This document shows positions 1-61,172 of a stretch of 64,000 nt of DNA, piece after piece. The position numbers and the translations under genes are program-made. Source of the stretch: Sipunculus nudus (Eukaryota > Annelida > Sipuncula > Golfingiida > Sipunculidae); the NCBI GenBank assembly GCA_026874595.1, contig CM049308.1, positions 52,775,624 through 52,839,623 of the forward strand. The letters run 5' to 3'. Under the pieces are notes generated by a model, which was given only the letters and a program-made list of their open reading frames with translations, had not been told where the DNA came from and made no database searches. The first letter of the stretch is position 1; the number at the start of each line of letters is the position of its first letter.

Positions 1-1957
1 CAACCGTTCTTTCAGTCGCTGAGATTCGCTGCTTCTTGGCTTAGTGATCCTTTTGTTCTACAAGAAGTGACAATGTATTTAACTTTAAACGTAAAAAAAT
101 CAGGGGCATCAATATTGGGGGGATTGGGGGTATATATACAAGGGGGATGATCTATGTAATCATTTTTTGTAATCAAATTTCTGAGTTTAATATGAAATAT
201 TTTATATCTAAACCAGATTTAGAATTAACATATACTGAAAACAGAATACCTTATTTTCTGAAACCTTATACTTAACTGTAATATATTTAAATGTTTCACA
301 CAGACAAAAAAAGTATATATATATATATATTTAGTGTGTGTATTTGTGTGTGTGTGTTCGAAAAAAAGTTGCTAGTCATCCCCCAAAACCTTGAAGGCAA
401 ATTGACGCCACTGTAACAAATATTACTGGGACAGGAAACAATGCCAAGTTCAGAATGCGGAGAACAATAGAGAGCCTGTGGACTAATCAGAGATGAACCT
501 AGAAAATGGAAAGCATCGCAGGAAATAAAGCTTGATGTGGTTCCGGCGATCAAGTTGACTTCCTTAGGTGATTAATTTCCCGGAGCAATGTTGAATTCAG
601 ACTTGTTTTGCTTGGCTCACGAAAGTCTTCATTTGGTGCCGTCAGGTGACATTTGGAAACTGTCATTTGCAGTGCAGGAATTTGAGCTCATGACAAAATT
701 GTATGAAGTCATTCCCAATACACCTAACTGCGCAAGGACCGCTTTGCTTAGCAGATCATTCCCATGTCTTGAAACTAGCACCTCAACACCGGACAGGCTC
801 ATTAAGGAATGGTGTTGACCGACCTCGTTATGTAAAGAGCGTACTTCAGCGTCACCAGCGCCACACACTGATAACCCTTAAAGCGAGTAGTTTTTAATTA
901 TTTTATTTATTGGTCTAAATACAAAGTTATTCGGGTAATAGTGAAATTAAAAATGTATTTATTTCCTGCAACGCCGCTTGATCAACCGGTCGAAATAATG
1001 CTACGTTCCTGTCTTAAACATAGAACATTTCATTAAATTTTGATAATTTGAATACATATAATATGTTTTTCATTCTAAAGATTCTGTTCGATTGATGTAG
1101 CCATTCCGTGTCAAACATTTCCGGTGGTGCATTGTAGATTGTTGGTCTCTGACTATTTTCTCGTTATTTAGTATTTTTGTTTTAGAACACGAGGGATATA
1201 CTGGACACCAGCACCATAAGAGAAAACAGCCTGCTTGACACATACCCGCTGAATGTTAGCTTTATACAGGAGTGCCAAGAGAAACTGGCAGAAGGAGACT
1301 GGGCTATTCATCAGGTTGGACAGAGAATCTACAGTATTTTGGACAGGTAGCGGGTACTCTTACCGTTCCATTTCTCCTGAACGTCCACGTGCTTCAGGAA
1401 GGTAATAAATGCTATCTTGAAGCCCGGAGGATTAAACAGTGCTTTGAAAAAAAGAACCAACTCTCAAATTAAGAATAATGGGATCCATAATACTTGACTC
1501 AGTTGATTTTAGCTACTTTGAATGTTGTTTATGGGGTTCATCTATACTGGCAGTGGGGACATTTCTTCTTCTAAGAGGAGCCTTTCGTCTCAGGCTTCTT
1601 GGCCTTGCTGTGTTTCCTTCAGATATTTTGCGTCACTGTTAATCTGTTACTGCGGCTGGAATTGGTGTGTCAAGAGAAAAAAAGTCTTCATGGGATTTTA
1701 CAGCCTACGGCGAATAGCGTTATACATGCAAGTCGAATTCCTCTTTTTCACGGCATTGGCCTTTACTTTCAAGAACATTTTACCAAGGACTACTGTTAAT
1801 GATATTTTCAGAATCATGTTATCTGTTTTTTTGGATTTCTCCATATGATTATAACGGGCTTTGATTTCTCGCTCCTACTGTTATGCGTTTCATGGGTATA
1901 TTTTTCTTGATCATTTCTACGCAAATTGTATGTGCCCAACACCTCTCCACACGATGC
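1..1957 (+). pseudogene. cGLR-TM copy A, decayed relic entering from left edge
   Basis: Remnant of a membrane-type cGAS-like receptor, closest to copy B. Exon 1 similarity starts at base 1, mid-domain, and matches B from about 8450. The stretch that encodes NGPAV in B is deleted at about 75. About 330 bp of unrelated AT-rich sequence with a (TA)n run (about 105-440) interrupts the exon, and a TAA stop occurs near 573. The LVPSGD motif survives at about 635-655. Exon 1 ends at 882, but the donor reads GCGAGT instead of GTAAGT. Exon 2 starts at 1186 after TTTTAG and keeps the RDILDTSTIRE motif. At 1347 the linker that reads DRVEKQGKAG in B is replaced by TA, giving an immediate TAG. Membrane-segment similarity continues in shifted frames to about 1957 (YIFLDHFY tail motif near 1895-1915). 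Gene function is lost; family assignment is firm. Confidence 0.85.
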
Positions 1958-4036
1958 CTGCATTGTGGTATTACATCCCAATGTCTTATACACACAGCAT
2001 GTAGATCTTCGTTGTGGTACATAAGTTGTCTTAGTACACAGGATCCAAGAAAGGGTAATTAATGTTCTGTTTAATACAATGATACAGATTTAAACAACTG
2101 AGGTACATTGTTATATATAATGTAACAGTCTTATATCAAAAGTCATGCGTCGCATAAGGTCTAACGCTTTGCTTTCTGATTTTTAATTCTTTCGTTTTAA
2201 TTCTTGTGCCTATCAAGTGCTCCGTAAAGTGTGCTCACACAACCTAGTAACTTCCTTTGGTTATCCATCATGATGTCTGGTTGAAGTTCCTATCCTCGTG
2301 TCTCGGCACTTGCAGCAATGAGCATTCCACACTCGCAGCCGCGAGCCACAGTGACCGATTATGTAATTACACTGCTTGTTTATGAATCATGATAATTATT
2401 TAGTTTATATTACTGTTGCACTGCCAACTTATAACATAGGGAATTATGCATATGTTCACATACACCAGTAATTGCTGAATGTTACTTTTTAAGTATTTTA
2501 TTTTTAAAACGGGCAATTCTCAGATGTCATCACTTCCATTCAGTTATTGTCACGTGGCCCTCTAGGGCTGGTTTTACACAAACCTATATCTGCATAATCC
2601 ACAAACCTACATCTGCATAATCTGTCCGAAATGATGAAATGGAACAACATGAAAATTAGGCGAAGCTTTTTTCGTTGGCGATAATTGAACCAGGCATGAA
2701 ATAATCGATTAATTTTAATAACTGCATTAATAGTTATTTCATTCTATTTTTAACCGTAGGCCATAGAGAATATGTAAATGATTCAGTAAGCAATGGTATT
2801 TAACAAAGAAATCATATGAAGTTTTCATATTTCAGCGCAGTAATGATTGTGCGATGGAGGAAGTAACATCGCTGACGGCTATATCCTTTACATCCTTCAT
2901 ATACCTGGAACATGCACAATTATAAAGCTATGTTTTCCAAAAAAAGTGCCGAGCTAATTATAAGTACTTTATACAGGCTATGAAAATATCTCATTAATCG
3001 GTAATCGGATCAGGCACGAAATAATCTATTAGCATTAATAAAGATTTTAATATTATTTATACTATATTTCGTACTATACTGTCTTCTGATGATTGTTGGT
3101 TGAGATTTACGAAGTCAAATAAAATAAATATGAAAACATCTTTCACTAAAAGTCTCTAAAATTATCATGCACCCTCGTTACTATATTCTCAAACACTGTG
3201 CTGAAGTGACCACGTTGTCCCGGGTAACAAAACCTTACAAAAAGTAAATATATAGCCTCATGATAATAAAATGCAACCAGAAATTCTTAATTTGCAATTT
3301 TGTCAGAAATGGGCACCAGTAAGAAAGCCAAGTTATATCTGCCCTGCATATCAGCAATGGATTAGAATATTTAAATATCATTTGGTCCATGTGAATGCTA
3401 ACACTTCTTATACACTTCATACACGTCTAATACAGAATATGATGATTGTTTACAAAATTTGCTTCGACAATCGACTCGAGAGGTAATGATGGATAATCGA
3501 ATCAAATTGTAGACCTAAATCCACATGCATACAAGGAAATAATAATAAAGCGTAATCACTTACGTTGCCTGATCAAAGGATACGTTATATCGTTAAGCGT
3601 TAAATGTAACCATACTCTAATCATAATCTTTGGTCTTCTACGCAATCTGAGGTGATAACTAAATATTATCAGATAAAAAAATTAAATCAGCGTTGTATTC
3701 GAGCTTTCCGCGAAGGACTTGCCTCAGTGGTTTCCCACAAGATGACAGTTGTTACGGAACCTAAATCAACAAATCACGTATGCGTGATGAACATAAATTT
3801 TGTAATGGAGAAGAAAATCAGATTCTGTAACACTAGGCAGCGTGAAATGTCTAGGGGAATGAATAAAGAAGTCGTTGGTTTTTTGTTAACAAATAACTAT
3901 AATTTATTCTTAAAACAACCCTAACATTACAATACACTAAATCAATACAATTACACAGTATAACAGCAGTATAAAAACAAATCAATACAATGACACAGTA
4001 TAATAAACAAAGTGCACAGTATCTGGATACCACCAC
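1958..4036. other. intergenic; 2330-3540 shares ancestry with the flank of copy B
   Basis: No gene is visible. From about 2330 to 3540 short blocks match the region downstream of copy B (about 12150-12775) in the same order, for example the CACTTCCATT block, the GCGAAGCTTTTT block and the TTTACAA/AATCG block. This shows that A and B were duplicated together with their 3' flank. Short open frames here have no family features. Confidence 0.5.
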
Positions 4037-8012: not shown

Positions 8013-11000
8013 ATGGCCGATGCAAACACAGATATCTTAACACAGGAACAACAGAATGAATATCCACCTTGGTGTAAATCCATCCTGCTGGGTGGAGTTG
8101 TAAACCATATAGCCACACAATGCCAGTCTCCTCGATCCTCTGTCGTTATTTGTAGCCACAATAATACAGAACTATACATCGTCTCTGCTTAATTGTGTAA
8201 AGCAGTCAAATGAAGAATTCAGCGGCGCTCTTATACCGTGTGGCAGCTTTTATGAAGGTACCAAGGTCAGTGAACCGAACGAATTTGATTTCATGTTTGA
8301 ACTTAATGGTCTTTCCTCAGAAAATTTACACGTAGAAGCGGTTGTGCTTCCGAGGTTTCGTCCCACCGAAAGGAACAGTATTCCCTGTCGCAGATTCTTC
8401 AGAATGGTTAAAGACACAGATGGGGCGGAAATTTCACCAACGGCGATCCAGCAAACGTTCTTCCATTCGTTGAGACTCTCTGCCTCTCGGCTAAGTGACC
8501 CTTGTGCTCATCTGCAAGACGTGACATGTAATGGACCTGCGGTGACGATGTATCTAACTTTAAACGTATGTAACATTACTGATGCTTTGGCGACAATGTC
8601 AAAGAGTTCAAAACATGAAAGTCAGAGGATACCCTGTGAAATGATAAGACGTGAATTAAGAAAATGGAAAACGTCTCAGGAAATAAAACTCGATTTGGTT
8701 CCCGCAATCAAGTTTACTTCATCGAGGGATTTTGTTGGAACTGATTTAGGTTCAGCTCAAGGAAGTAGTTTTCATTTGGTGCCCTCAGGTGATTTTTGGA
8801 AATTATCAGTTGCTGTGCAGGAATTTAAGCTAATGACAAAACTGTGTGGTGCCAATCACAGGACTCCTGACTCCGCAAGTATCGCTTTGCTTAGAAGATT
8901 ATTCCCACAACTTGAAACTTGCCCAAGCAACTCTGTACCCGTAAAGCCCATTCAGGAAATATCCACCGGTGAACCAGGTGTTGATGGACCCAGCTATGAT
9001 AACTGCATTCTACAGCGTAGTAAGCGCCATACTTTGATAGCCCTTAAAGTAAGTACGTTTTACATATTTACATTCATTTGTTTAATGCTGCGTTCGTTAC
9101 CTCTGGAATTTATGGAGATCACCAGCTGTCAGGTTGTGCAAACGACTTGCAACCTTTTGGTTCCCAATAAACAGAATAAAAGGCTCAAATACCGGCTGTC
9201 TAGTTTGTCCTTTTAATCAAAGAAGGACCGATTTATAATATACGTTTAATGTCACATTCGTTCGATTTTATTAAACACTAATATTTTTACAAGTTACATT
9301 TTGGTTTTATTATTTGCTTTCTGGATGCCGTCATTGCCATTGATAAAGATTAGGGTCGTCAAGTGGAATAAATGGGGCTACTACAGCAAGCCCTAGTTCT
9401 CCAGTGGTAAATAATATATATATATATATATATATATCCATTATATGTATGGTGTTGTGGTTAAATATCTTTCGGAACAACGTTCGGTACATGTTTCGGA
9501 GCAGCGTAAAGTCGCACACGGTCATCCTAAGGAAGTACCTACCATGTGGTCGGGGTTTTTGACAAATAGTCACCTACACATGTACCATGTGACATGAGAA
9601 ACTTATCAAAAGTATTACATATACATACAAAAGAAACAATCCACGGAATAGACCTAAGAAGAAAATGCAAACATATCAGTTTTATTTGTGAAAATAGTAA
9701 CAATGATGGTCATGACTAATACGCAATAACCATACATACTGAATGAAAGAACTAAAAGTCTTTAAAAACAAAGAGTATTACATAAACATTATTGAAAACA
9801 GATGGCACCTGCATGTAAAAGAAACAAATACCAGTACAAACGTATTAAATATACATTTTCACAGGAGTTTTACATTTGTAACTGCAGTAATGAGCAAAAA
9901 ATTCTCGATTTACAAAACATTTTAAGTTAATATTATGTGTTTACAACTTTGGGGGTGCCACTCTATCATGTACACATCACACTGTACCTACCCCGACGTG
10001 AATTTGGTTAACATTTTCATTATATCTGTTACATATTAGGCCTACATGTGTTGGTGAATATTTGTCAAGGACCTAAATCGCATGCAAGGCCCTGAACTTC
10101 GTGCGACCAAGTGCCACTATATAAATAAGACCCAAAAAAAATAACAATTACGGTTCTCAGGCACCGCCCGCGTAAAATTATACCCCAACCCCGCATAAAA
10201 AAATTATTTTGATTTTCATCTTTCAAGAAGATAAAATAATATAATTTTGATCAAATTTCCTTTGTTATGTAGTGCTTTTGTGTGTTAAGCAAAACAATTC
10301 TGTTATTTTCATGCTGATTTAATCAGTTCTTTCTTTCTAGTTGTTCTGCGAACTGAAAATAGAAGTAAACATCTTAAATAGAGACATGACAATGAAGAGA
10401 CTAAACGAAGTAGAGACCAATATGGAAGGGCAGCTTTGCATATTGGGATAGTCTGAGCATGAACGCTTCTAATGGTAATCTGCTGATAGCAAGGTTTCAG
10501 CCCAGGCTAAATCTAATCCAGTGAACCAAATAATTGTTTTCATTCAGTAACTAAACGTAAGTAATCTACATGTCCCCATCAAATGTGTGTCACGGTTGGG
10601 CCACAGATATGCTCGAGAACAAAATGATTTCTAATACAAGTGAATGGCTCTAGGCTTTGGCCGGGATTAAAAACCTTGCCAAACAAAATCAAATAACTAA
10701 CCAACCAGGATGAAAACATAACACCTCACTACTTTGCGAAAGTGTAGTATGTATGCGCTCAACCCCAAACACAACATGTTAAATATTTATACCTCCGCCA
10801 GATGGCGCTACAGTTTTGTCTGTGTGCAATTTTAATCAAAATGTGTCTGTGTGCAATATTTATTCAAAGGATCATCTTGATTTTTTCTGGTGGTGACCTG
10901 AGTTGCGGTTATTGAGCACTGTGTAAATTGATAAGGCTCCTGGCGATGGTTGTGATCTCTAACCGCTTTTTGTTATTTCCTATTTTGTTTTAGTACACGA

Positions 11001-11833
11001 GGGATATACTGGACCCCAGCACCATAAGAGAAAACAGCCTGCTTGATACATACCCGCTGAAAGTTAGCTTTATAAAGGAGTGCCAAGAGAAACAGGCAGA
11101 AGAGGACTGGGCTATTCACAAGATGGGACGGAGAATCTACAGTATTTTGGACAGGGTTGAGAAACAAGGGAAAGCGGGTACTCTTACCGCTCCATTTCTC
11201 CCAAACGTCCCCGTGCATCAGGAAGCAAATAAATGCTATCTTGAAGCCCGGAGGATGAAACAGTACTTTGAAAAAAGAACAATCTCTCAAATGAAGAAAA
11301 ATATTATCCATGCTAAATTGTACCTTATCCAATTAACGTTAGCTGCTCTGACTATTGTTTCGGGGTTAACCTACTGGCAGTGGGGGCATCTGCTCTCCCA
11401 GGAAGATTGGCACTATGGTTCAGGCTTCTTGGCCTTGCTGTGTTTTCTCCAGATATTCTGTGCCACTGTTAATCTGTTATTGTGGTTAGGGCAGGGTTAT
11501 TGGTGTGTTAATAGGAGGAGCGCCTCCAGAAGAGTTTACAGCCTACAGAGAATAGCCTTCATACTGCAAGCCGCATTCTTCTTCTTCACAGTATTTGCGC
11601 TTATACAACTTTTCAGAAGATTGGAACAGGGACTACTGTGGGTGATAGGATCAGAATCAATTACATTGTTCTTTGGATTTCTTCATATAGTTACATTGGC
11701 TTTGATTTCTCGCCCTTACTGCCACGCTTTTCAAGAGTATATTTTTCTGGATCATTTTTACACAAAGTATATGTGTTCACGAACTTCTGCCCATGAAACT
11801 TGCGTTAGGGTATATGAGACCAATATCTGCTAA
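8013..11833 (+). CDS. cGLR-TM copy B: cGAS-like nucleotidyltransferase with C-terminal 4-TM module, one frameshift
   Basis: Two exons: 8013-9048 and 10994-11833, joined by a 1945-bp intron (AAA|GTAAGT ... TTTTAG|TAC, phase 0). The ATG at 8013 has a good context (A at -3, G at +4) and opens like its paralogues (PWCKSILLGG). The frame is lost near 8123; an upstream TAA at 8101 in the new frame rules out another start. Comparison with E, F and I fits a 2-base loss. Downstream the protein is open through PCGSFYEGTK, the metal-binding NEFDFM, NGPAV, the third acid in EIKLDLVPAIK, LVPSGDFW and the final ALK helix. Exon 2 is fully open: RDILDPSTIRE, CYLEARRMK, four hydrophobic segments, tail QEYIFLDHF. 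Known for the family: nucleic-acid-triggered cyclic dinucleotide synthesis for STING. Inferred: membrane-anchored enzyme, now either a recent pseudogene or affected by an assembly indel. Confidence 0.85.
9049..10993 (+). other. intron of copy B
   Basis: Non-coding intron with canonical ends. Just inside it exon 1 stays open to a TAA at 9214-9216, and two AATAAA signals sit at 9166 and 9175. It holds a (TA)n run at about 9413-9437 and no gene. Confidence 0.6.
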
Positions 11834-16517: not shown

Positions 16518-17196
16518 TGTGTTGACAGTTATTCTCAGGTAATACTCGTAATATGTTGCAAACGACTGATGTAGCTTAGCTAAGGTAGAAGTTTTAGAGT
16601 TTATTCTTATTACCAAGATATTGGTTTTACGTATAAGAACTTATTGTATATTATTTCATCAAGTTTCTTTTTCTAGTTGACACGGTTCAAGCTTGTTCAA
16701 ATGTAAGACTGGTGCGACACCTGGAGAATGATACTGAACCAAAATAAAATCTGAATAGTCATTTTCAGTAGAGCAAACAAATCAAAACAATTCACAAACG
16801 TTTAACATAGCAAAGATTAAGAGTTGGCATTCAACTAGTACATGTACAAAACAATAGAGCTAAGAACGCGCACAAATATACCCACTATTAAAAATTTTAA
16901 CACAGAGTACATATACAATAGCTATATTAGAATAGAAATCTTAAAAATAAAAACGTACACAACAGCTGAAAATAATATCGTTTCTCTTCTAGACATAATC
17001 CTACAAATTCCAGGTTATATTCAGTCTGACGTAAAATGCATCGAGCAAATTAAAAATAGTCAATACTAAACATGTTCCCCTACATTAAGGTGATTATACC
17101 CGAAGCCAATGAATGACTCTAGCCAATAAAGAAAAGATTACATACAAAATAATATACATCCGATTAAATGTAAAATATCCAAATACAATAAAATAT

Positions 17197-17317
17197 CATA
17201 TCAAACCATACCGGTGACATAGTGACACATATCTGCAAATGAATTTGAGAACAATTTCATATCAAACCATACCGGTGACATAGTGACACATTTCTTCAAA
17301 TAAATTTGAGAACAATT
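17197..17317. repeat. two-copy 61-bp tandem repeat
   Basis: Two direct copies of a segment starting CATATCAAACCATACCGG. The same pair is present at the matching place in unit 2 (28401-28522), so it predates the segmental duplication. Confidence 0.85.
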
Positions 17318-19299
17318 CGACTAGAATATATTCACATTAAAGTGTGCTGGAACTGAGGTGATTTACGATTTTCAGCTATTTATATGTATCATCACTAAAT
17401 TACTCAGTTTTTGCGCCTAATATAAAACATTTCCTTTCCTGGCACCTAATTCATCAGTGAAGAAACGCCAAGGGTCTGGTTCATAGACTCACTTTTAACC
17501 AAAGCTCCAGACGCGCCATGTTGGACGGAAGTGCTGCCATCTACAAATTATTATAACAGCTAACTCACTGACGGTGAACTAAGGTGCCCCACGAATGAAC
17601 TGTAACTTCACTCTCCTCACTTGGAAAGTGTCACTATTTAGTTAACCGTTTGCAACAATTGAAACACATTCACAATTAACAACACCTACCTAACTCTTTA
17701 GATTTATATACAGGTTTATATACATTTTTGGTACCGTTGTTAAATGTGTCACATGGAACATATGCAAAAATAATAAAGTTCCAAGATCGGTGAAAGCTAT
17801 ATACTGCAGAATATTATTATAAAATAGGTAAATATTATAGTATACAAATTAAATCTAAAACATAACCTACTGTAAAGTGCATGTGCTTTTGTTCCCATGA
17901 ATGAATGGATTTTTTCTTATTCTTGAAATGAGGCCTTAGGCCAAAAGTTTCATTAATGTGAACTTTTCGCAATATACATAATAATAGTTATTTTTAAATA
18001 AATATATACATTTCACATTTTTCAAAGATAAACAAACTTGGTCACAGAACAAGTACTTATATCTGAATTTAGTACCTAATATAATATTATGTAGTATTAC
18101 TTGTTTACAGTTTCTAGTACTCATATTTGTTCTGTAAATGAATTAATGACCTTTGTCTATAACTCTCTCATTTTATATGCAAACATTCATTAAACAATAT
18201 AATAAAAAATATATAAGCTATAAAATAAAATATACTTAACTCTCAAGTTGGTTTATTACCTGTGTAATTTGAGCAAAGAAGAAATTCTCATAAAACCGTG
18301 ATACAGCGTTATAGGCGAAACACGTATATATAAGTACAATGCGATGGTAACAGGTACGGCTTCACGATCTTGAACATGAGAATGGGGTGTTAGAAGGGTA
18401 TTCTGAAAGCTACAATGACGTGAATATGAACGAAAATATCATTATGCTGGCTGAGAACCCATACTTGGGGAAATCCTTCTATGGTTATATAAATAATCAT
18501 ATGACGATCAAGACAACACACGTTGACCGATGCATTGATTTATTGAATTTACTGATCTTATCAGTGAACAAAATACGACAGTTTTGTTGACAGACAAAAT
18601 TAATAAGTCCATTAATTATTTAATGTCTATTAACTGTTTAAACATATACATAACCCCCAGTTACGGTAGTGAAACAGACCATTTGCAAAATTCCATTTCG
18701 TGAGAATATAATGCACGGGACATCACGTTCTAAATATTTAACAATATTTCCATTTACATCAAGAGCTGAAAGCTTTGCATCATGTGAATTTGAATCCTAC
18801 TTAAAAAACTAAGTAATCATGCAAGAAACAGCAAACATCTTAATCGGCCCATCGTAATGACTATTTAGGTCACCTATGAAGCAATTAGTATACTTCTTGA
18901 GTCAAGTGCATGTGGCTGTTTGGTACAGGCTCAAACGTCATTACCTTTTTACATTTATCATCACAAAACATATTTATTACATGCTTTTAACTCCATGTGA
19001 ACTCATATGGAGATAAATATTAGCTGCTTATATTAATTACTTTTGTACGTTTGTTTTATTTTATAGACACTTCAGTTTAACATATCAAAACCTTTATATT
19101 TATATCATACATATTACAGCATCCGGGTAAACTGGCGTATCACATTTTAACATTTTATCATGTTAACCTACTTTAGTTATCTTTAAATGTGTATTCCTTC
19201 ACATTCTCTCAAATAATTTAATGTATCATATATATCACTCCGGAAAGTCTTATTTCGAGACATTATTCATGAATTGTATACACTGAATTCGTATAAGTC
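17318..19299. other. downstream flank of gene C, no gene
   Basis: AT-rich flank duplicated at 28523-30503. A 67-codon open frame at 18387-18590 is conserved in the twin at 29591-29794, but the surrounding non-coding sequence is equally conserved, so this says nothing about coding. Confidence 0.4.
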
Positions 19300-21741
19300 T
19301 CACACCTGGAAATATGTTGTCTTGGTCCTATATCTACGAGGACAACAAAAATCAGCATAGAGATGGTCGGAAAATATATATTCATTTATGTGAAACCAAA
19401 AGGCATCATAAGAAGTCAAAAGATAGGCAAACAGCTGAACACTTCCCAAAAAGCAAGTCCCGAATTCTGAAATAATAATCATGTAGAACTGTCCGAAGTA
19501 CACCATTAAAATAGACATAAGAGCAGAAAGACAAATGTAGACCTGCAAGACAAAGGAAATTTTCTGCATGGAATAGAATATTCCTGCAGTATTCCTTATG
19601 TTTCGGCTACAATGACTTTGTACAAAGCACCAAACTGTGCTGAAGGCACCAAGTGCAGTTCGAGAGGTACAGGTGCAACTCAAAATTATAAAAAGGTCAT
19701 CCCAGGACGCATCTTCTTCGGAGAAAATGTACGAAATGCCCATACAGGCATTCCATGCTGCGATTAGAAGCTGAGCGCATAATTAAACAACATGGGCACA
19801 ATTTCTGTTCCGCTGTGCTTTTGTCATTTCCTCGAAAAATCCTTTCATTCTCCGACCTTCCAGGTATGATTTGTCACCTTCGTGGTGTATTGAAACATTC
19901 TGAAGAAAAGGAAGAGTCATGCACCCTGACTTGCCCTGTTTCTCAACTCTGTCGAGAATGCTGTAGATTCGCTCTCCGAGTTCATCAACTTCCCAGTCCG
20001 ATTCAGATGGATACTGCAGGCACTCTGAGATGAAGCTGACCTTTATAGGGTACGTGTCCAGAATACTGGCCTCTCTAATTGTGCTTGTGTCCAGAATATC
20101 CCTCACATACTGAAATGAAAGGTATTTCGAATTAAATGTTATGGGGATACACATCTGTAGGATAATTGTTTCTATGATAGACTGAATTAGAACTATACAA
20201 TGCCGTATGAGCGGCACTGCTTGTTGTATAAATTTTGCTGGTCTTAAGATTAAACAGCTATGGAAATTTAGACATGATTTTGGTGAATAAGTTTGTTGCA
20301 CCATTTCAATGTGATTAACAGTTATGTATACATATATAGCGATCATGAAATAATTATTTCCAATAAATGAAAAGTTTAAAATCCCTTGTATCATTTGGTA
20401 AAATATTCCTATTGTATTTATTCTTGTATCTTTAACAAAATAGAAAAAAAAATCTAACAAATATACACTGTTAAAATCAATGTTACTTTTGCAGTAGGAG
20501 GTGGTAACTTTTAATTTAAACTGCCTGCCAAACATAATTCAGATGGAAACGAAATATACAAGTATTAGTTGTAATATGGAAAAGTGGAATCGTGTCTCTC
20601 TCTCTCACGCACATACGAACATAACCAAGGTCAGGAACAATAAAAAAAATAGGCCATGTAAAACACGCAATAATACATACTTTCAGGGCAGTCAGACAGT
20701 GACGACGATTAATTTGTAGCATTTCATTCTCGCCCTGCATTCCTGATTGTTCTTTTCCAAACACCCCCAGGCCTTCAGGTCCTCGACTAACGGAGCTGTT
20801 CCATATGACAGTTCGTTTGCATATTTCATGAAACGAGAACTTTGTACCTGTGAATGAAGTTCTTTCAGATAAGGCGGATGCTACTCCGCATAATCTGCGC
20901 ATGAGATGAAATTCCTTCAGAGCAACCGATATTTTCCAAAAGTCACCTGATGGCACAACGTGAAAGGTGTCTTCCTCAAGGCTACACCGATCAACTTCTA
21001 AGCCAGCTTCTTCAAGTGCATGGCGGGTCAAAGTCTTTCTTATTGCTAAAACTAAATCTATCTTTATATCTCCGTGTTCCTTCCAGTTCTCTATCTGCCT
21101 AAACATCTGACCACAACATTTTCTCTCAAGCTCTGACGCCGAATGCTTGGCTTGATAAATTAATTCCTGTTTCATCTCGGGGGCATTCAATCTGACGTAA
21201 ATGGTCACGGCAGGTCCTATACATGTCATTTCTTGAAAACGGATAAACGGATAATTTGTTCTGGAAGGTGTATTCTTTAGAGTCCTGTAGAAGCTTTCTT
21301 GTACCTCTCTAGCAGATACATCACTATCGTCGTCAGTTTTTGAGAGTTTAAAGTAACCACGGGGAGTAATGTGGTTGTCTCCTTCTGATGGAAAAAAAAC
21401 CTGGGAGGAGTCACGTGTTCTATCTGTGTTTTTTCATCAGAAAACGTTTCCAGTTCAAACATAAAATCAATTTCGTTAGGACAGCTCACTTTCGTTCCAT
21501 CATAAAAACTGCCACAGGGTATCAGGTCACCCACAAAACGAGCATCTGAAAGCCCGGCATCAGTCAGTAGGGTAACAACATAACTTCGTGCGAGCCAAGC
21601 TAGGAAATGTGCTTTCGGTATTTGTAATCTTGCGTTGTGAGTTGCGACATGATGGACAAATCGGCCAACGAGTATTGATTGGCACCACGATGGCTTCTCA
21701 TCTGTGTCTTCATCTTTTGGGTCTACTGAGTCTGAAGCCAT
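19300..21741 (-). pseudogene. cGLR-TM copy C (twin of E), frameshift plus nonsense
   Basis: Minus strand. Exon 1 is 21741-20681 and exon 2 is 20109-19300, with a 571-bp intron (AAA|GTATGT ... TTTCAG|TAT). Start ATG has A at -3 and G at +4 and a protein beginning MASDSVDP. The core shows PCGSFYDGTK and the metal-binding motif, here NEIDFM where E has NEFDFM (both acids kept). At 21392-21399 the coding T-run is 8 long against 6 in E, a +2 frameshift just after PPRF. The rest of exon 1 is open in the shifted frame (CIGPAV, KIDLVLAI, VVPSGDFW, HCLTALK). Exon 2 is open through YLEGRRMK until TTA becomes TAA at 19785-19783, at the very start of membrane segment 1. The four segments and the tail NEYIFSDHL remain open below. 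The homopolymer lesion could be a sequencing artefact; the nonsense base is less easily so. Confidence 0.88.

Positions 21742-23461: not shown

Positions 23462-23498
<37 letters not shown>

Positions 23499-27216: not shown

Positions 27217-27218
<2 letters not shown>
25166..27218. other. no gene seen
   Basis: AT-rich sequence matched by unit 2. No coding, RNA or repeat feature recognised apart from its duplication. Confidence 0.35.
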
Positions 27219-27275
<57 letters not shown>

Positions 27276-34188: not shown

Positions 34189-34251
<63 letters not shown>

Positions 34252-37276: not shown

Positions 37277-37346
37277 TAACTGAAAACATTAAATCATATT
37301 TAAATGTCATCTAACTGAAAACATTAAATCATATTTAAATGTCATA
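37277..37346. repeat. 35-bp tandem duplication, unit 2 only
   Basis: A segment starting CTAACTGAAAACATT is present twice in a row here but only once at the matching place in unit 1 (near 26765), so it arose after the segmental duplication. Confidence 0.85.
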
Positions 37347-37762
37347 TAATGTCAAATGTCTGTATTTATTTACTGAAATGTCAAATACAATCGGTTTCTT
37401 CCGTCTGCATTTCACTGAAGCCAAGATCATAATTTACACGATGCAAATATATACTGACAGAAACAACCGTCATACACAGAGCCCTTAAGAACCATCAGAT
37501 CTAGAAATTAACATTTATTCAAATGATATTATGAAACCTATATGAGAATAATACGTGTCACCATTTCATAAACTGATGGACGTCCCACTTTCGAAGATAC
37601 CGGCACACTTATGAAACGTTTTTAAAAACTTAACACATTTTTATCAGGTGTTCCCCTCTCATTTAGTATTATCCTTACCCAGAAAACTGTAGGAACGGAT
37701 GTTTATCTGAGGAAAGATGGGCGACAGAGGACGGGAATTAAGCCTATACTATTAACACTTTC

Positions 37763-37808
<46 letters not shown>

Positions 37809-37812
<4 letters not shown>

Positions 37813-37976
37813 GAAAAACAACACTGTAAATTCACAACAGTCTGTTTCACGGGATGCGACCCGATCATCAGGTGAATGTGGTTAGATTCTGTGTTGTTTT
37901 TCTTCAGAGTAATACCGCTCTGGCCTAGTCTGTAGGCCATAGAGCACTTTACAACGGAGGGTAACTCTACCTTTTA
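37809..37976. repeat. hairpin repeat, copy 2, right arm mostly deleted
   Basis: Preceded by (TA)n. The left arm is complete, but the right arm is reduced to its last bases (GTGTTGTTTTTCTTC), so the palindrome has collapsed compared with 27280-27476. The tail with GGCCTAGTCTGTAGGCC is kept. Confidence 0.8.
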
Positions 37977-38257
37977 TATATATATATATATATATAGTTC
38001 TAAGTAGGTTTCAGTGCTAGCAGCATAGTGCTCGATACAGCTGAGGTAGAGCAGGTATATATATATTGACGTTTTATTGCAAATTCCCGGTCCATATACA
38101 TGCTTATAGAAAATGAAATCTTTGTGTGAAAATATAGATATCATAACGAAGTCAAAATACATACACATGTCTACCAATACATATTGACATACATACATTA
38201 TACATGTATATATAAAAATATATATACACATATATAAGCGCATAGATATGTCTATCC

Positions 38258-38608: not shown

Positions 38609-40683
38609 ATGGACACGCCGAACGAGGCCGAAAATTTATTACCCGGAGAGGACAAGCCATCCTGGTGTAAATCAGTACTTGTTGGCCGATTTGTACAACA
38701 AGTCGCTACAAATGATGGCAGATTACAAAGCCCAATAGCCCTGTTCATCGCTTGGATCATACGAAATTATGCTGTATCCTTATTGACTGATGTTGGGCGG
38801 TTAGATGAGCAGTTTGTTGGGGACTTGATACCATGTGGTAGTTTTCATGAAGGCACAAAGGTGAGTCTACCCAACGAGTTTGATTACATGTTTGAACTTA
38901 AGAGTTTTCCAGGTGAGAATATTCTCATAGAAAGCGTGACCCCTCCCAGATTTCGACCAGCTGGAGAAGAAAACAATATCACTCGTTATGGTTTCTTTAA
39001 ACTCTCAAAAATTGATGATGGGATATGTGTATCAGCCAAAACCGTGCAAGAGAAATTCTACCGCACGCTAGAGATAGTTACATCAAGAACCAGCTTTTCT
39101 TTACTTCATTCCAATAGAATCATTTGTAATGGCCCTGCTGTGTCAATTTTTATCAATCTAAATCTGGCCAAGGTAAAACAAATGTTAAGACTGCTTATAC
39201 TGCACTCTCCGTCAATACGCGAAAAGAAGCTTTGCAAAAGGACACTGTGGCAGTTGAGAAAATGGGAAAAAAATCAGGAAATAAAGCTGGACTTAGTGAC
39301 GACGATAAAGAAACACCTGACCCGTCAGTCTCTTGAAGACGCTAAGATAAGATCAAGCCCCCGACTATTTCTCTCTGAGGAAGAAACCTTTCACTTCGTT
39401 CCATCAGGAGATTTTTGGAAAATATCGGTCGCTTTGCAGGAATTCAACCTCATTAGGAGACTTTGTGGAATAGAATCAGCCATTTCTGCAAACAATATAT
39501 ATAACAGGTTCACTTTTGCGGCTATATGTAACCGAACTGCGGTACCGGCCAGAAATGAAGCCGAGGAGCATTTGTTGAATGAAGCAGACTGTGTTTCTAC
39601 AGGAGACCAAAATAATCTTCTGCAGACAAATCGCCTTCATTGTCTTCTAGCTCTGAAAGTAAGTGCTGCCTCTCATATATTACATCTCAAATTGTGTGAA
39701 AAAAAGCCAGACCGCACTTTATGTAGTTATTAATAAGCTACAGAAGCATTGCTGTTTCAACAATAGTGAATTATTAATGTTGAATCAATATGATTATTTC
39801 TAAAGTCCCTCTATTAAAACATTTTCTTCCAGTATGTCAGAGATCTTCTGGATACAAGCACCATAAGGGAGACCAGTATTCTTGATACTTACCCTTTAAA
39901 GGTGAGTTTCATATCAGAGTGCGAACAACACCAAACTGAAGCTGACTGGCACCTTCATCGGATGGGGGAGAGAATATACAGTATTCTGGACAGGGTCGAC
40001 AGGTTCAATGATGTCGACAGGGTAAGTCCGGTTCCATGACTGTTCCTTTTCTGCAGAATGTGTCGGTCCACCAAGAAGGCAACAAGTGTTATTTAGAAGC
40101 CCGGAGAATGAAAGAATTTTTTGAGGAAATGACAAAAACACAGAAGATTAGAAATGTCACACATGCAGTTTTATTCTTGCTCCAGTTGCCGATTGCTGCC
40201 GTGAAAGTTGGTGCAACCACCAGGGCCACTAGATGCCCCGGAGTATCTGTTAGCGAACTTTGTTATAATACCCTGCCATTATTATTAATTTGTATGGGCT
40301 TCCTCCATATTATACTTGGAGCTGTTAACATTATTTGGTGGATTGTGCAGAGGAACTGCTGCAGAAACAGAAAAAGTACATCTCGGGTATTTTATTCCAT
40401 GAACAAATACTCTTTTTTTCTCCAATGTGTGTCCTTCTGTTGTGCGATAATATCGTTTTATTCGTTATTTCGATTTTATCATATGGAATATCTCCATTTT
40501 ATTATCTTAATTCCAGATTTGGTGACAATGTTATCAGTATATGTCTATCTATTTTCATTCCGCCTTGCGTCAAGAGGCAGGTTTTGCTTTTATATGAATG
40601 AATGTATCTTCTCAGACCAGCTTTGTGCTGAACGCTTTTGTCCACGGATGGATCAAACTAAAAGTTCATACTTTGTGGTGTAA
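38609..40683 (+). CDS. cGLR-TM copy F: best-preserved cGAS-like receptor with 4-TM C-terminus
   Basis: Exon 1 38609-39658 (350 codons), 174-bp intron (AAA|GTAAGT ... TTCCAG|TAT), exon 2 39833-40683. ATG context is strong (A at -3, G at +4). Core: PCGSFHEGTK with GS at 77-78, metal-binding E90 and D92 (NEFDYM), CNGPAV at 173-178, third acid D228 (EIKLDLV), FVPSGDFW at 263-270, HCLLALK ending exon 1. Exon 2: RDLLDTSTIRE, CYLEARRMK, hydrophobic segments near 447-465, 486-510, 531-550 and 558-582, tail NECIFSDQL at 594-602. The single problem is in the linker: an 18-nt insertion and 4-nt loss shift the frame near 40012, giving TGA at 40037. Removing 40022-40056 (35 nt, GTAAGT...CTGCAG) restores a 621-residue protein; unspliced, the product is 418 residues and lacks the membrane part. 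Family role: nucleic-acid-sensing cyclic dinucleotide synthase acting through STING. No cGAS-type zinc ribbon is seen. Confidence 0.88.
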
Positions 40684-47442: not shown

Positions 47443-48799
47443 ATGGGGGAAACAATACAGAGTCCCATGCTGCAAAGACGAATATACATTCGATGCCTGA
47501 ATATATCCTTATTAGCAGGGTTGTGAAATATGTAAGTGACAAAAATGCAAAATTATTTTATCCATTGACTTCTGTTGTTGCTTCTTTTATCCAGAGTTTT
47601 CTGGAATATCTTCTGGAAGAAGTTACGCGAGACTTTCATTTGTGTCTTGATGCCTTACGGGAGTTATTTTGAGGGCACAAAGGTAAATCGTCCCGACCCA
47701 TTTGATTTTATACATGATTTGAGAAGTTATTCATCGGCAAATTTTCACATATGCATACAAAGTGCTGTCCTATCTCTTCAAAGTATCTCTGGTGTTGAGG
47801 ATCAGACTATATCTCATTTAGTGATATGCAGATCAGAATTTAAAAATTACCTAAAGAGCTTATAATTTTGATCCTAGCACCCTTGCGTGCAGAAGAAGAT
47901 GTGGTTTGCCCTGGGCCTGCTTTATCAATATTTGTAACCTTGAATTTGGTCAGGATAAGACTTGTCCCTCGCAGAATGTCCAGCAGTGTATCGTCGAAAT
48001 CTGTACGAGATTACTGTTAGACAGCAAGAAAACAATTTTGTAAATGAAAAACATCAGAAGAATTGAAGCTGAGCTTGGTTCTTGTTATTAAGAAAAAAGA
48101 ACTTTCACTTGAACCATTAGGATATAGGAACCATTCAGGGATAGAAACAGTTTGCGAGCTCTTCCAATCAGCACAGGAGGAAACCTTCCATTTGGTTCCA
48201 TGTGGAGACTTTTGGAGGCTGTCACTTTCTGTGCAAGAACTCCATCATATGAGACAACTCTGTACACCTGTTCAGTTCGATGATTGGATGAAGACAGTAT
48301 TTCCAAGAATGGCTTGAATGAACTCAGATATGTTCAGGGGCCCGTATATCTAGGGCACATGACAGCTGTTTCTCTGTTTCTCTGACTCTACCTTTTCTTC
48401 TTTTTTTTGCCAGTGTTCCAAGAACACAAATGGCTACATTTAAGTTGGTAGAATGGAACCACATTTCCGTAACATGACCAGGACACAGAAATAAGGAACA
48501 TGGCACATACGCCTTTAAGTATTCTCATGTTTTGCTTAGTGGCTTTCATATTGCATGTCATGATTATCAGAATCGTAAACAATAACGATGTCCTTGTCTA
48601 CGCAGAGCTGTCCATATCAGTCCTCGTGGTCTGCCAGCTCGCGTGGGCATCGATACATACGCTCTCAGGTAAAAGACATTTGCTTTCTCATTCTTGGATA
48701 CTATTTTCCATTATGGTATTATTTATTTTACAGGTAATGTATGTGTTTATATGTACATATATACAAATCCTCACAAAAAGAGGAATACCTGAGAACTGA
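47443..48799 (+). pseudogene. cGLR-TM copy G, heavily decayed
   Basis: Exon 1 relic about 47443-48316 and exon 2 relic about 48415-48799, spread over several frames. Recognisable parts: SVVASFIQSFLEYLLEE (N-terminal helix, as in I), PYGSYFEGTK at about 47651, then PDPFDFIHDL where paralogues have PNEFDFMFEL, GPALSIFVTLNLVRIR, KLSLVLVIKKKELS, HLVPCGDFWRLS. The first half of exon 2 with its conserved linker is missing; similarity resumes at the VPxFQE/CYLEARR region in a broken frame, then about two membrane segments. The first metal acid is replaced by P and the third acid (D in KLDLV) by S, the latter shared with I. Closest to I. Non-functional. Confidence 0.82.
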
Positions 48800-50740: not shown

Positions 50741-52963
50741 ATGGATAACAGATATCAATGTGTTAACAGATCAAGCGTGGCTACCTTAGAAAAAGGATCG
50801 GTAGGGAGAAATGACGAAACGCTTCCTGCGTGGAGTATATCAGTGATTGTAGGAAGACTGGTCGATTATGTAGCAAGAAAAAAAGCCAGATTATTAAACC
50901 AAGTGACCGTTTTTGTGGCGTGTATTATGAAGCACTATGCTGAATTAATAGTGATGGCAACTGAAGAAAAAGATGCAGGTTTTAAAGGTACATTGGTACC
51001 ATGTGGGAGTTACCATGAAGGAACGAAGGTTAGCTGTCCAAACGAGTTTGATTTCCTACTGGTATTGAACAGACATCCATCACAATATGTAAAAGCAGAG
51101 AGTTTTTTGCCACCACGTATTCGCCCAGGGGTTGAAAACGATAGAAGACCTAATGTGTTCTTTAAATTGATAAATAAATCATCTGGCAGTCAAATATCAG
51201 CTAGGGATATTCAAACATGTTTTTACACGTCTCTAAAGAGTGCATCAGCTGAGTCTGACTTTCTCCTGGTTACATGCAGAGAAGTAACATGCAATGGACC
51301 TGCTGTGACATTACACGTCACGCTGAATGTTGAAAATATACGAAATATCATACTTCAGGGTTCCAAACGTATGCCGCCAGTTTTGCAGAGAAATCATTTT
51401 GCAAACTTAGCAAACAGCTAAGACGCCTCCCAGCTGATATAGCTGGATTTCGTTTCAGCGGTGGAATTGAAAATATCACGGGAAACACTGAATGAGGCTG
51501 GTATTGAAACCAGCAATGACATATTTCAATCAAACACAGAAACCATGCATCTTGTTCCTTCGGGTGATTTCTGGAAGCTTTCTGTTGTCATGCAAGAATC
51601 TAATTCATAAGGAAAGTATGTGGCCTGGGAACAGGAAATACAATGAACGCATCGCAGTGGTTGTCAAGTATATTAATTTCTTCCCAATCAGTTCTTCCAA
51701 GAATTCTGGCCACAGCACCCCAACAACAATGCAGCCTAGAGATTGAGACATTGGTGCTCCTGGAGAATAACCTGTCAGTCAATAGACGACACTGTTTTGT
51801 TGCGCTAAAGGTACTATAGTTAGGAGTGAATATACTCACATTGTATTTCGCCAATCATAAAAAAACATATTTTGATATTTCTCCGGGTAGGTAAACTTAA
51901 ACGTACTTTTTCTTGACCGGTGAATTTATGCAAATAATTTGCCCCCTCTATTTAAATCTTTGGTTTCAGAACCCATAGAATAATTAGCTTCGTTATTGTT
52001 TTTGGTTGAAAGAAATTGTAAATACAAAATAATCGTAATTTGTAGGACCGTTTATTTTGATTAATTATTCAGGAGGTTGACAGATATTAAACTAAACATA
52101 CGCCGGAATTATACCATGGTTGTTGTTCTAGTATTTCAGAGACATGTTGGACACAAGCTCAATAAGAGAGTCAAGTCTTCTTGATACTTACCCAATAAGC
52201 TTTATCGAAGAGTGTCGGAAGAAAACGTCTCAAAAGGACTGGACAGTTGACCGAATTGGTCAGAGAATTTACAGTATCATGGACAGGACAGAGAAACATA
52301 GAAAGGCTGGAACAATAATGGTGCCGTTTCTTCCGAACGTTCCAGTTCCTCATGAAGGAAACAAGTGTTACCTTGAAGCTCGAAGAATCAAACAACATCT
52401 TGAAGATTAAACCAATGCACAGAAATATAGACACACTTTGCACTTGGTGATTTATTTCTTTCAAATATCCTTTGCAGTAGGTATCCTCCAGTTTAACTTT
52501 AGTGGGTGGAAGGATTGCAACAGCAAATGTTCACAGGGTTTACATGATTCCATGATCCCTGCATATAATTTAACAACTATTGTATGCAGTCTCCAGGTTG
52601 GAAGCACAGCTTTCAATGTGTGTTGGTGGGTTGGACATAGATATTTTTTCCAATGCCAAGAGTACAACACGAATTCTTTACAACATGCATACTGTCTTCA
52701 TGCTAACACAAATTGTTTCTGTTTCTTTCTCGTTGCCTTCATTTATCGTCTGTTTGTCATGCAAACCGAAATGCTTCTGTGCTGTAGCTGTTTCAGAAAT
52801 TGTGATTCTTGCGTTAGGAGTTCTACACATGGTATTTTTTCTTTCCACTTCCAGACTAAATTGTAACATTCATATCCATGAACACATATTTTATGACCAT
52901 CTTCTGTCAAATTTTATTAATAATATTAGGTCTAAGAACAAGACGGCTTTGCTGGATATTTAA
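50741..52963 (+). pseudogene. cGLR-TM copy H, recently broken
   Basis: Exon 1 50741-51810 (donor AAG|GTACTA), intron 321 bp, exon 2 52132-52963. The first 226 codons are open and include PCGSYHEGTK, both metal acids in NEFDFLLVL, and CNGPAV. A frameshift near 51400 gives TAG-type termination at 51421; the rest survives in pieces (LDFVSAVELK with the third acid, LVPSGDFWKLS, RRHCFVALK). A second decay zone lies at 51600-51760. Exon 2 is open from YFRDMLDTSSIRE through CYLEARRIK to a TAA at 52408, just ahead of membrane segment 1; segments continue in the same frame, then shift near 52650. The tail HEHIFYDHL is intact to the final stop. J and K look like relatives of this copy. Confidence 0.87.
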
Positions 52964-53965: not shown

Positions 53966-54089
53966 CCCTACAGGTGCGGACAATAAACAGAGTGCTTTGA
54001 CAAAGACTTCGTTATCAAAAAGCATCAGGTCACAAGTCCAGTGGTGAATGAAGTCAGAAATTTATTCATATCATGTATAATTAACAAGC

Positions 54090-55104
54090 ATGGAGCCTGA
54101 AAACAGAGATGCGAAAGAGGTTAAAGAAACGAAACTACCATCGAAAGCTGAACAAGACCCAATTGGTAGACTTGTGGAACATTTGGCTGACAAACGCGCA
54201 CATTTATTGCGCCCACTGTCTCTTTTTGTTGCTTCATTTCTCCAGAGCTTTCTGACGTCATTACTTGGGCAGGTCTACTAGTCAGACGGGAGCCTAACTG
54301 GTACCCTGATACCGTACGGGAGTTACTTTGAGGGCACAAAGATCCGTCAGCCTGACGAATTTAATTTTATGTATGAACTTAGTACCTTTCCCTCAGAAGA
54401 GCTACATGTAGAAAGTGTTATACCGCCACGATTTCGTCCTGAAGATGACTCAACCATACCCCCGCGTGATTTCTTCAAGATCTAAAAGAAAGCGACCGGC
54501 GAGATTATCTCCGCGAGCAATATACAGAGCAAATTGTACACTTCTCTAAAGAGCTTAGACTTTGCATCCGACGATTCCTTTGTGCAGCTGAAAGATTTTT
54601 TGTGCCATGGACCCGCTATTTCAATATTTGTAACTCTAAATTTAGTAAGGATCAGACATATTCTACAACGATTGTCCCGTATTGCGTCATCCTATCAAGG
54701 GAAAGTTCTCTGCAGAAAAGTGGTTATGCAGTTTAAAAACTGGAAGGCATCACAGAAAATCAAAATTAGCTTATTACTGGCTATTAAAAAATATTTATCC
54801 CGTCAGACACTGAATGACGCTGAAATAGAAGCAAGTCCCGGTCTTTTTGAATCGCAAAATGAAGCCTTCCACTTTATGCCATATGGTGACTTCTGGAGAC
54901 TTTCAATTGCTGCAAGGGAATTCGATCTCATGAAACAACTGTGTGGTTTCAAAGGGGGTCCATCTGTCCAGTTGTCTGATTCTAGTCTGGACAGCCTTTG
55001 AGGGAATGAACTGAAAGAAGCGAGGCATGTTGAAGACAGCATATATGAAGGGGACGTCACTAAGACAAACAGAGGTAACTGTTTATTGGCCGTAAAGGTA
55101 AGTG

Positions 55105-55161
<57 letters not shown>

Positions 55162-56158: not shown

Positions 56159-56195
<37 letters not shown>

Positions 56196-57098
56196 AAGAC
56201 AAATTTACAGAATCATGCTTCTTCCACCATTACAGTACAACAGAGACGTGTTCGACACCAGCACCATAAGAGAGTCTGGTCTTCTCGATACCTATCCACT
56301 GAAAGTGAGTTTTATAGAAGAGTGTCTGGATAAACCAACAGAGGCAGACTGGGCATCTGAAAGACTAGGTGAAAGAGTGATTGGGATCCTGAATAAGGTA
56401 GAAAAATAGGGCAAATCTGCTGCTCTGACTGTCCCATTTCTTCCAAATGTCCCAGTTTTCCAAGAACACACCAAATGCTACCTGGAGGCTCGAAGGATGA
56501 AAGAACATTTTGGTGATACAGCCAGAGTACGGAAAATAAGAAATATCGCTCATGCAACTTTATATATAGCTCAGTTCATCATTGGGATACTGATACTGTG
56601 TAGAATATTTGTAAGAAGGATAAAACATGGAAGTGATTATACTTATCTGGAAATCTTTTTCTTATTTTGCCAGATAGTTTGCGCATTTATACATACAATA
56701 TGGTGGTTCTCGGAAAAATTTTGTTGCAGAAGAGGCAAGCGGAATACTTCTGATATTTTATATAACATGAACGTGGTTACTTTCAGTTTACAAGTTTTTT
56801 TACTCACTTTGACTCTTGGTCTAAATATACTTTTAATTGTTACCGGTTACCGTACCGATGACCATACCCTTGAAATTTATTTTATTTTGACGGAAACATT
56901 TATATGTTTTATGGGAATAATGTTTTCTTTATTTCTTCACGTGGAAACTGCAGGGCTCACTTAAATGAATGTATCTTTCTGATTATCTTTTCAAGGATTT
57001 CATTTGCCGCAACATTTATAGAGAGAAACAAAACAATCATTTTGTATAATAATAGTAACACATCGATACAGAACTATTGTGAGGGGCTGCCAAAGTAG
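54090..57098 (+). pseudogene. cGLR-TM copy I: pseudoenzyme-type core, broken mainly by nonsense codons
   Basis: Exon 1 54090-55097 (336 codons, donor AAG|GTAAGT), intron 1138 bp, exon 2 from 56236 (TTACAG|TAC). Exon 1 keeps one reading frame throughout but holds three stops: TAG 54279, TAA 54483, TGA 54999. Motifs: PLSLFVASFLQSF, PYGSYFEGTK, PDEFNFMYEL, HGPAISIFVTL, KISLLLAIKK, FMPYGDFWRLS, LLAVK. The second metal acid is N and the third acid is S, so this copy would be inactive even if open. Exon 2 keeps RDVFDTSTIRES, then TAG at 56407 where relatives have Q, then CYLEARRMK and four membrane segments in frame to 56964; the tail NECIF is reached only after a frame change. Either a lost pseudoenzyme (nucleic-acid binder, regulator or decoy) or a copy that lost catalysis while decaying; sharing of D-to-S with G favours the former. 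Confidence 0.87.
55107..55159. repeat. (TA)n in intron of copy I
   Basis: About 26 TA units directly behind the splice donor of exon 1. Confidence 0.9.
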
Positions 57099-58089: not shown

Positions 58090-58431
58090 CCTGTGCTGTC
58101 TCCAGGCAGGAAGCACAGTCTTCAACGTGTGTTAGTACCTTGGATACAGAAATTTCGATTTCGTTCTTGTTGCCTTCATTTGTCGTTTGTTTTTCATGCA
58201 TTCCTAAATACTTTTGTGCTGTAACTGTTTCAAAAATGTTGGTTCAAGTGTAAGGAGTTACACAGATGGGTTGTTTTCTTCTATCGGCAGGTGGACATTG
58301 TTACTGTTACATGCATGAATACATATTTTCCGATCATCTTCTCTCAGATTTTATTGGGACAGATAGATCAAACAACCGGATTCCTTTACTAGATATATGT
58401 GTCAACAGAGCTCGAAAAAGAAGAGATTAAT
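58090..58431 (+). pseudogene. cGLR-TM copy J, exon 2 tail fragment
   Basis: Similarity to exon 2 of H starts at the CTGTCTCCAGGCAGGAAGCA stretch (H near 52590) and runs to a TAA at 58429. The membrane region is shifted in frame and shortened. The last 45 codons are open and preserve the family tail: YMHEYIFSDHLLSDF followed by a basic RARKRRD end. No exon 1 is visible upstream. Not functional. Confidence 0.7.
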
Positions 58432-60959: not shown

Positions 60960-61172
60960 TGGCGTTTGAACCCATTCAAAACGTCTAAATACAGATATAT
61001 TAGCATTTGCCCAACGTTTTGAAGAGATATTATGCTGCACAAGCCAATTAGCTACTTGGAGATTTGGAAATTCATCCGGAGATAAAGCTGGATGTAGTTT
61101 CAGGGATGAATATGAAAATATCACGTGCAAGAAACCAGAATGAAACAGGAATTGAAAGATGTAGTAAACGGA
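60960..61172 (+). pseudogene. cGLR copy K, small exon 1 fragment
   Basis: Nucleotide similarity to H around 51350-51510: the CGTTTTGAAGAGATATTATG block, GATAAAGCTGGATGTAGTTTC (third-acid region, reading KLDVV) and AAAATATCACG, ending with a GGAATTGAAA block. The best translation, EIKLDVV then MKISRARNQNETGIE, matches the helix after the third acid. Both ends fade out. A relic only. Confidence 0.55.

Follow-up and report, generated by a model that had tools for sequence, protein, structure and literature searches.

The stretch of DNA analysed here (the window) comprises 64,000 nt of the Sipunculus nudus assembly GCA_026874595.1, at positions 52,775,624-52,839,623 of contig CM049308.1 (C3 in our numbering of the contigs). 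It holds ten units of one gene type, a two-exon gene whose predicted product joins a cGAS/Mab-21 nucleotidyltransferase to four hydrophobic segments. To locate the units, we combined frames read from stop to stop, profile scans and a tblastn search of the window with the copies; eight of them have a clear exon 1 and nine an exon 2, that of copy F being weak and that of unit I a tail only (Table 1). The original prediction had also counted ten copies or fragments, and both tblastn and the profile scans recovered ten, although the tenth, unit J, matches only weakly. Exon 1 of copy E matched copies H, A and C far beyond chance (E-values of 5e-75, 2.3e-62 and 7.6e-104, respectively), whereas the still stronger E-values that the profile scans gave for window units are circular, since the profile itself contained those rows.

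Calling lesions by frameshift-aware alignment to exon 1 of copy E and exon 2 of copy A, with the main copies realigned to intact relatives, we found a stop or a frameshift in all eight copies that have exon 1. The original prediction, which treated the cluster as working receptors, had missed this. Copy A carries one frameshift, B a frameshift and a stop, C two stops, E one frameshift in exon 2, and unit 1, F, G and H several lesions each; unit I is lesion-free over 99 aligned bases. Aligning A to the exon of a distant relative (L032, introduced below) gave three extra shifts in the variable C-terminal part, which were absent from the first alignment and were left uncounted. Copies B and C stem from a tandem duplication. 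Its halves are ~99.5% identical over the 3' flank and 99.1% over exon 2, against 97-98% for the intron and exon 1. Since the duplication, 24 codons of exon 1 have come to differ (19 nonsynonymous, 5 synonymous, about the neutral proportion) and 7 codons of exon 2 (4 and 3); these counts were used in place of the ratio of nonsynonymous to synonymous rates (dN/dS), whose value for the pair, 4.25, comes from few changes. Apart from B and C, pairwise exon 1 dN/dS among window paralogues (unit 1 being left out) was 0.23-0.33 where unsaturated, many pairs being saturated and giving no ratio, which indicates that constraint predates the decay. We consider it improbable that some copies still function, the lesion being an assembly error or a segregating allele: A and E have a single frameshift each and are otherwise open, and the frameshift of B sits in a T run, but B and C carry two lesions each, substitution stops among them, the remaining copies carry several, the B/C differences look neutral, and neighbouring genes read cleanly in the same assembly. 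Judged by these lesions, the window is the decayed portion of an array in which an animal gene family with two exons is repeated in tandem, and the copies in it are pseudogenes.

Table 1. Features of the window, numbered from its first nucleotide
Feature	Position	Strand	Details
Unit 1, span	within 1-1985	+	
Unit 1 exon 1, fragment running from the strand of the third acid to the splice donor	501..882	+	GC donor; stop 573, frameshift 759
Unit 1 exon 2	1186..1985	+	nine lesion events; at DNA level, 78% identical to the exon 2 region of A
Copy A, span	8010-11833	+	
Copy A exon 1, nucleotidyltransferase core	8013..9048	+	Pfam Mab-21 26.1 bits (cut-off 24.1); frameshift 8118
Copy A exon 2: C-terminal lobe, four hydrophobic segments, tail	10994..11833	+	open; low-confidence AlphaFold2 model
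Tandem duplication (~11 kb) that gave B and C	16518..38146 (halves 16518-27721, 27722-38146)		98.6% identity over 5,357 bp; further stretches 87%, 95%, 97%
Copy B, span	21747-19303	-	
Copy B exon 1	20681..21741	-	frameshift 21395
Copy B exon 2	19300..20109	-	stop 19785
Copy C, span	32946-30507	-	
Copy C exon 1	31882..32940	-	Pfam Mab-21 32.6 bits; stop 31938
Copy C exon 2	30504..31313	-	stop 31220
Copy E, span	38603-40683	+	
Copy E exon 1	38609..39658	+	open, 350 aa; acids E90, D92, D228
Copy E exon 2: C-terminal lobe, four hydrophobic segments	39833..40683	+	frameshift near 40017
Copy F, span	47505-48778	+	
Copy F exon 1 remnant	47505..48263	+	catalytic acids lost
Copy F exon 2 remnant, weak	48379..48778	+	alignment score 58, identity 0.25; one piece E 0.0013 by profile
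Copy G, span	50723-52963	+	
Copy G exon 1	50741..51810	+	three frameshifts
Copy G exon 2	52132..52963	+	stop 52408, three frameshifts
Copy H, span	54084-56961	+	
Copy H exon 1	54084..55097	+	catalytic acids lost (DEFN; Ser at third acid); stops 54279, 54483, two frameshifts
Copy H exon 2, damaged tail	56236..56961	+	stop 56407
Unit I exon 2 tail fragment	58254..58427	+	profile E 1.5e-7
Unit J, possible exon 1 fragment	61052..61195	+	reads EIKLDVV; weak, E 0.012

Pfam, profile and fold searches agreed on the cGAS/Mab-21 core that the original prediction had named. Exon 1 of copies A and C exceeds the Pfam cut-off for Mab-21 (Table 1), and Mab-21_C matched six of eight rows at an E-value of 0.1 or better, two of the eight being exon 1 alone. 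A single-sequence search of the PDB with exon 1 of copy E returned cGAS only weakly (E-value 0.018 or worse); the profile search then settled the fold, matching the MAB21L1 structure 5eog at 2e-4, and the predicted structure of exon 1, compared by Foldseek, has the cGAS-like core fold (both AlphaFold alignments were built from window pieces only). On these matches, the family belongs to the Mab-21/cGAS nucleotidyltransferase superfamily (Pfam PF03281 and PF20266). The catalytic acids E90, D92 and D228 stand in copy E exactly as predicted, but the full motif, originally ascribed to all ten units, is confined to A, C and E, which carry P-N-E-F-D and the third Asp. In B the sequence is PNEID; G keeps NEFD, its third acid lying in a different frame; F and H read DPFD and DEFN, both with Ser in place of the third acid; and the first acids were not seen in units 1, I and J. 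Searches for prokaryotic or viral relatives, using exon 1 of C and exon 2 of A against viral contigs and exon 1 of E against genome contigs, gave 2, 1 and 26 pattern matches, respectively, none of which was confirmed.

The intron lies at the same position, in phase 0 and with GT-AG borders, in all seven readable window junctions (bar the GC donor of unit 1) and in all six genes from outside the window. It splits a single Pfam domain: on exon 2 of copy A alone, Mab-21_C scored 20.8 bits against a cut-off of 24.1, but once the end of exon 1 was joined to exon 2 it passed in three of three pieces (26.7, 25.4 and 32.4 bits), with protein and profile stretches of equal length through the join. Thus, the region preceding the hydrophobic segments, first described as a linker, is actually the enzyme's C-terminal lobe. 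A pattern search requiring the Tyr found the motif L-x-[TSA]-Y-x-x-K in 15 sequence variants of exon 2; it aligns with the region of human cGAS that we take to bear the base-stacking tyrosine Y436. Conserved splice sites, one domain divided by the intron, and exons that are both open and constrained in intact copies support the predicted joining of exons 1 and 2 in one protein.

These intact copies emerged when exon 1 of copy E was searched against the whole genome (1.43 Gb in 153 contigs), which gave 52 places. Three intact two-exon neighbours lie ~90-120 kb left of the window, at C3:52.658-52.686 Mb (L033, L034 and L032, whose exon 2 is L061), and a fourth, at ~52.641-52.644 Mb, has an open exon 2 and an exon 1 unmatched in its middle. 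Further away, L040 and L041 (C9) and L042 (C3:81.66 Mb) have an open exon 1 with the catalytic triad, and stop-free exon 2 frames of 299-301 aa; the stretch fetched for L042 reached only the first hydrophobic segment. Exon 2 of copy A matched at least 41 places: nine in the window, four beside it, three in the C9/C3:81 group, 18 further ones on C3, and seven on C9:39, C5 and C1 (the 1.3 kb examined of the C5:87 Mb members covers the lobe exon only). For the C3 clusters at 6.6, 10.3 and 29.8 Mb, all 14 frames listed have the first two acids (13 as PNEFD, one as PKEFD), and the third is present in all 11 that are long enough, the other three ending before it. All three acids stand in seven of nine sequences compared (E, A, C, the L032 gene, L040, L041 and L042), and the Glu/Asp/Asp triad is kept in four of the six intact genes measured. 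Pairwise dN/dS in the intact-gene sets, where one comparison per exon set includes copy E, was 0.16-0.34 for exon 1 (seven of eight comparisons) and 0.14-0.45 for exon 2 (six of eight), the rest being saturated, which points to purifying selection on both exons.

A Kyte-Doolittle scan at 1.5 showed four segments after the lobe, as predicted, in copies A, E and H and in L033, L034, L040, L041 and the L032/L061 gene. Exon 2 frames from the other C3 clusters (L046, L051, L052, L053 and L060) have three to five, L051 ending at the edge of its stretch. Across six sequences, Lys and Arg number 5-7 before segment 1, 2-7 between segments 2 and 3, 0-2 in the other two loops and 1-5 in the tails, a pattern that fits both ends lying in the cytosol. 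The long helices of the exon 2 model (80-131, 140-170, 175-210 and 215-259) fall at the hydrophobic segments, and a hydrophobic stretch in exon 1 of copy E (42-60, mean 1.5) falls in core helix H42-65 of its own model.

We then placed the family in a tree of 36 rows from this genome, 18 anchored and 18 other Mab-21 rows, the latter picked from 30 Mab-21 loci; places on the Pfam list without fetched loci stand outside the trees, and "other" means that no C-terminal segments were seen, not that the protein was demonstrated to be soluble. A branch with a support of 100/100 separates the anchored rows from the others, both when all columns are used and when the anchored rows are represented by exon 1. 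In the all-column tree, 5 of the 18 anchored rows are exon 1 only, and L052 and L053 were not cut at the donor; in the exon 1 tree, row A retained ~40 residues of exon 2. L045 and L055, two of the five rows with exon 1 only, were called anchored by their place in the tree and by open exon 2 frames listed nearby, their exon 2 lying outside the fetched stretch. Given the length of this branch and an unrooted tree, we treat the anchored rows as one group and not as a dated origin. Taken together, hydropathy, charge pattern and tree support a membrane-anchored branch of cGAS relatives, in keeping with the membrane-resident branch first proposed.

As for a reader of any nucleotide product, the STING ligand-binding exon matched 14 places, on C10 (64.7, 66.9 and 74.2 Mb) and C16 (9.38-9.40 Mb), two of them with an internal stop, which makes a cyclic dinucleotide receptor likely in this animal and suggests more than one STING gene. 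Within the family itself, no STING model (PF15009) was among the Pfam matches of the eight rows at an E-value of 0.1, and no STING was in the profile hits. The triad in four of six intact genes and the STING exons together suggest a membrane-tethered synthase with a product read by STING. By its sequence, an intact member encodes a cGAS/Mab-21 nucleotidyltransferase that its C-terminal lobe completes across the phase-0 intron; four hydrophobic segments come after the lobe, and a conserved tail of short length ends the protein. The segments would cross the membrane with both ends cytosolic, so that the enzyme faces the cytosol; members keeping the triad would make a cyclic di- or oligonucleotide upon binding a ligand; STING proteins of the same animal would read it; and the tether would confine sensing or signal release to the membrane. 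On this reading, the family evolves by birth and death, its copies here being pseudogenes while intact ones, some with the triad and some without, persist nearby and on another chromosome. We regard this account, a decayed tandem array from a membrane-anchored branch of cGAS-like synthases with a STING-read product, as reasonably probable.

Several results weigh against this account. With regard to the fold, Mab-21 stays below the Pfam cut-off in copy E (13.9 bits) and the L032 gene (18.2 bits), as it does in G (15.7 bits), and among the 50 Foldseek matches listed for the exon 1 model, TM-scores were only 0.36-0.43 and root-mean-square deviations 6-10. As to the anchor, copies B and C show three segments over 1.5, not the four predicted for every copy; exon 1 has hydrophobic stretches over 1.6 in L034 (two), L041 (one) and the L032 gene (one); and the AlphaFold2 model of exon 2 is poor, with a predicted local distance difference test score (pLDDT) of 52 and a predicted template modelling score (pTM) of 0.34. 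When exon 2 was shuffled 500 times per gene and scanned at a cut-off of 1.6, 54 shuffles equalled the three segments observed in L032/L061, and 14-15 equalled the four observed in each of three other genes, so that segment count alone is modest evidence. The hydrophobic exon might then not be a membrane anchor, or not be joined to exon 1, representing separate genes, isoforms or a buried helical domain. The low-confidence model and the shuffles speak for this, but we think it highly improbable: without exon 2, the Mab-21_C domain would be truncated, splice sites and phase are conserved in window and intact copies alike, the charges fit a topology with cytosolic ends, and the long model helices coincide with the hydrophobic segments.

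Between B and C, the 19 nonsynonymous and 5 synonymous codon changes of exon 1 show no constraint. The motif search in exon 2 demanded the Tyr, and it missed copy G, which has a two-residue gap where the Lys stands. None of the nine sequences matched the published motif of cGAS-like receptors (cGLRs), h[QT]GS-x8-20-[DE]h[DE]h-x50-90-h[DE]h (PMC9980059), and a pattern scan of the sequences found no zinc ribbon. Allowing any residue before Gly-Ser and a spacing up to 140 still gave none of nine, because of the Pro at the first position. In L033 (C3:52.66 Mb) and L034 (52.68 Mb) the first acid is gone, and in L033 the second as well (PDGFN and PDGFD, respectively); both genes are intact and constrained and likely encode pseudoenzymes, and part of the branch is therefore unlikely to consist of enzymes of the usual kind.

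These losses underlie the main rival explanation, in which the anchored proteins, as scaffolds with a Mab-21 fold or as pseudoenzymes that bind a ligand, signal at the membrane by protein contact and not by a nucleotide. Copies F and H also lack the acids, the cGLR motif is absent, ITPRIP offers a membrane protein of the same fold in the available part of its description (PMC6550788), and what was available of a shrimp study of Mab21 proteins favours a scaffold or pseudoenzyme role. Set against this are the four intact genes with all three acids, the 11 of 14 frames from the other C3 clusters (three being too short to tell), the retained Tyr and Lys of exon 2, and the STING domains in the genome. 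We hold the scaffold explanation to be rather unlikely, if the most serious competitor, and the family probably works like a cGLR, although, for want of the published motif, we do not class it among the cGLRs in the strict sense (Li et al. 2023). More tentatively, we propose as a possibility short of an even chance that an entire branch of cGAS-like synthases, competent in catalysis, consists of four-pass integral membrane proteins. They would be divergent enough in motif to have escaped the catalogues, would make their nucleotide signal at a fixed membrane, and would have diversified within a single animal into dozens of copies, accompanied by offshoots that are pseudoenzymes and by many copies that are broken.

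Other Mab-21 genes of this genome differ in layout. L001, which matches Pfam Mab-21 best in the whole genome, shows no membrane segment above threshold, sits apart from the anchored clade and looks like a MAB21L1/MAB21L-type gene. L014 (C2:61.68 Mb) and L027 (C2:61.69 Mb) read TGS...PDEFD, and each has a hydrophobic segment close to its N-terminus, which may represent another, N-terminal mode of anchoring within this genome; L007 resembles them but is sub-threshold. In L011, L015, L018, L023, L025 and L030, open frames of 728-773 aa extend well beyond the nucleotidyltransferase match. Within the window, we also noted a diverged tandem repeat of 146 bp units at 42941-43249, with related pieces up to 43519. 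An Rfam scan returned nothing at gathering scores.

Among known systems, MAB21L1 and the MAB21L-type proteins have the fold in common with the anchored family, as the 5eog match attests, and differ from it, to judge by L001, in having no membrane segment above threshold. In the DANGER proteins, the membrane regions of microdomain I are N-terminal. The anchored family resembles ITPRIP, ITPRIPL1/2 and the DANGER proteins in tying a Mab-21 fold to a membrane (PMC6550788, PMC1784063), but in the available parts of these sources the predicted signal peptides or membrane regions of DANGER proteins lie in the diverged microdomain I, whereas the family studied here has four C-terminal segments. STING, placed in the same proposed pathway, likewise has four membrane helices, which in the available text are N-terminal and accompanied by a cyclic-dinucleotide-binding domain (PMC12424679). 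A link between the two sets of segments found no sequence match: the four-segment region of L034 retrieved no PDB chain at an E-value of 10.

cGAS and the cGLRs share with the anchored family the nucleotidyltransferase fold, the C-terminal helical lobe and, in copy E and several intact genes, the Glu/Asp/Asp acids, as sequence and fold matches indicate. They differ in that the anchored family has four hydrophobic segments after the enzyme, Pro-Cys instead of a hydrophobic residue and Gln or Thr before Gly-Ser, 134-139 instead of 50-90 residues between the second and third acids, and no zinc-ribbon pattern. We found no description of a C-terminal four-segment anchor on a cGAS/Mab-21 fold in the literature searched, which leaves out supplements and most subscription journals, and a prior description is possible. 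Sensors of the cGAS type are mostly treated as soluble enzymes. In the available part of the 2023 cGLR survey, 87% of cGLRs lack any extra domain, fusions are mentioned with ankyrin, with TPR and of multiple cGLRs, some bivalves have more than 200 cGLR proteins, and "transmembrane" occurs twice, both times for STING (PMC9980059); membrane binding of cGAS itself is mentioned in the accessible portion of another source (PMC10855445). With none of our nine sequences matching the published motif and seven of them keeping all three acids, a motif-based census can skip part of a family. If the synthase account is true, some animals would fix signal synthesis to a membrane through a built-in four-pass anchor, which would bear on the means by which a diffusible messenger stays local and on the discrimination of self from foreign nucleic acid.

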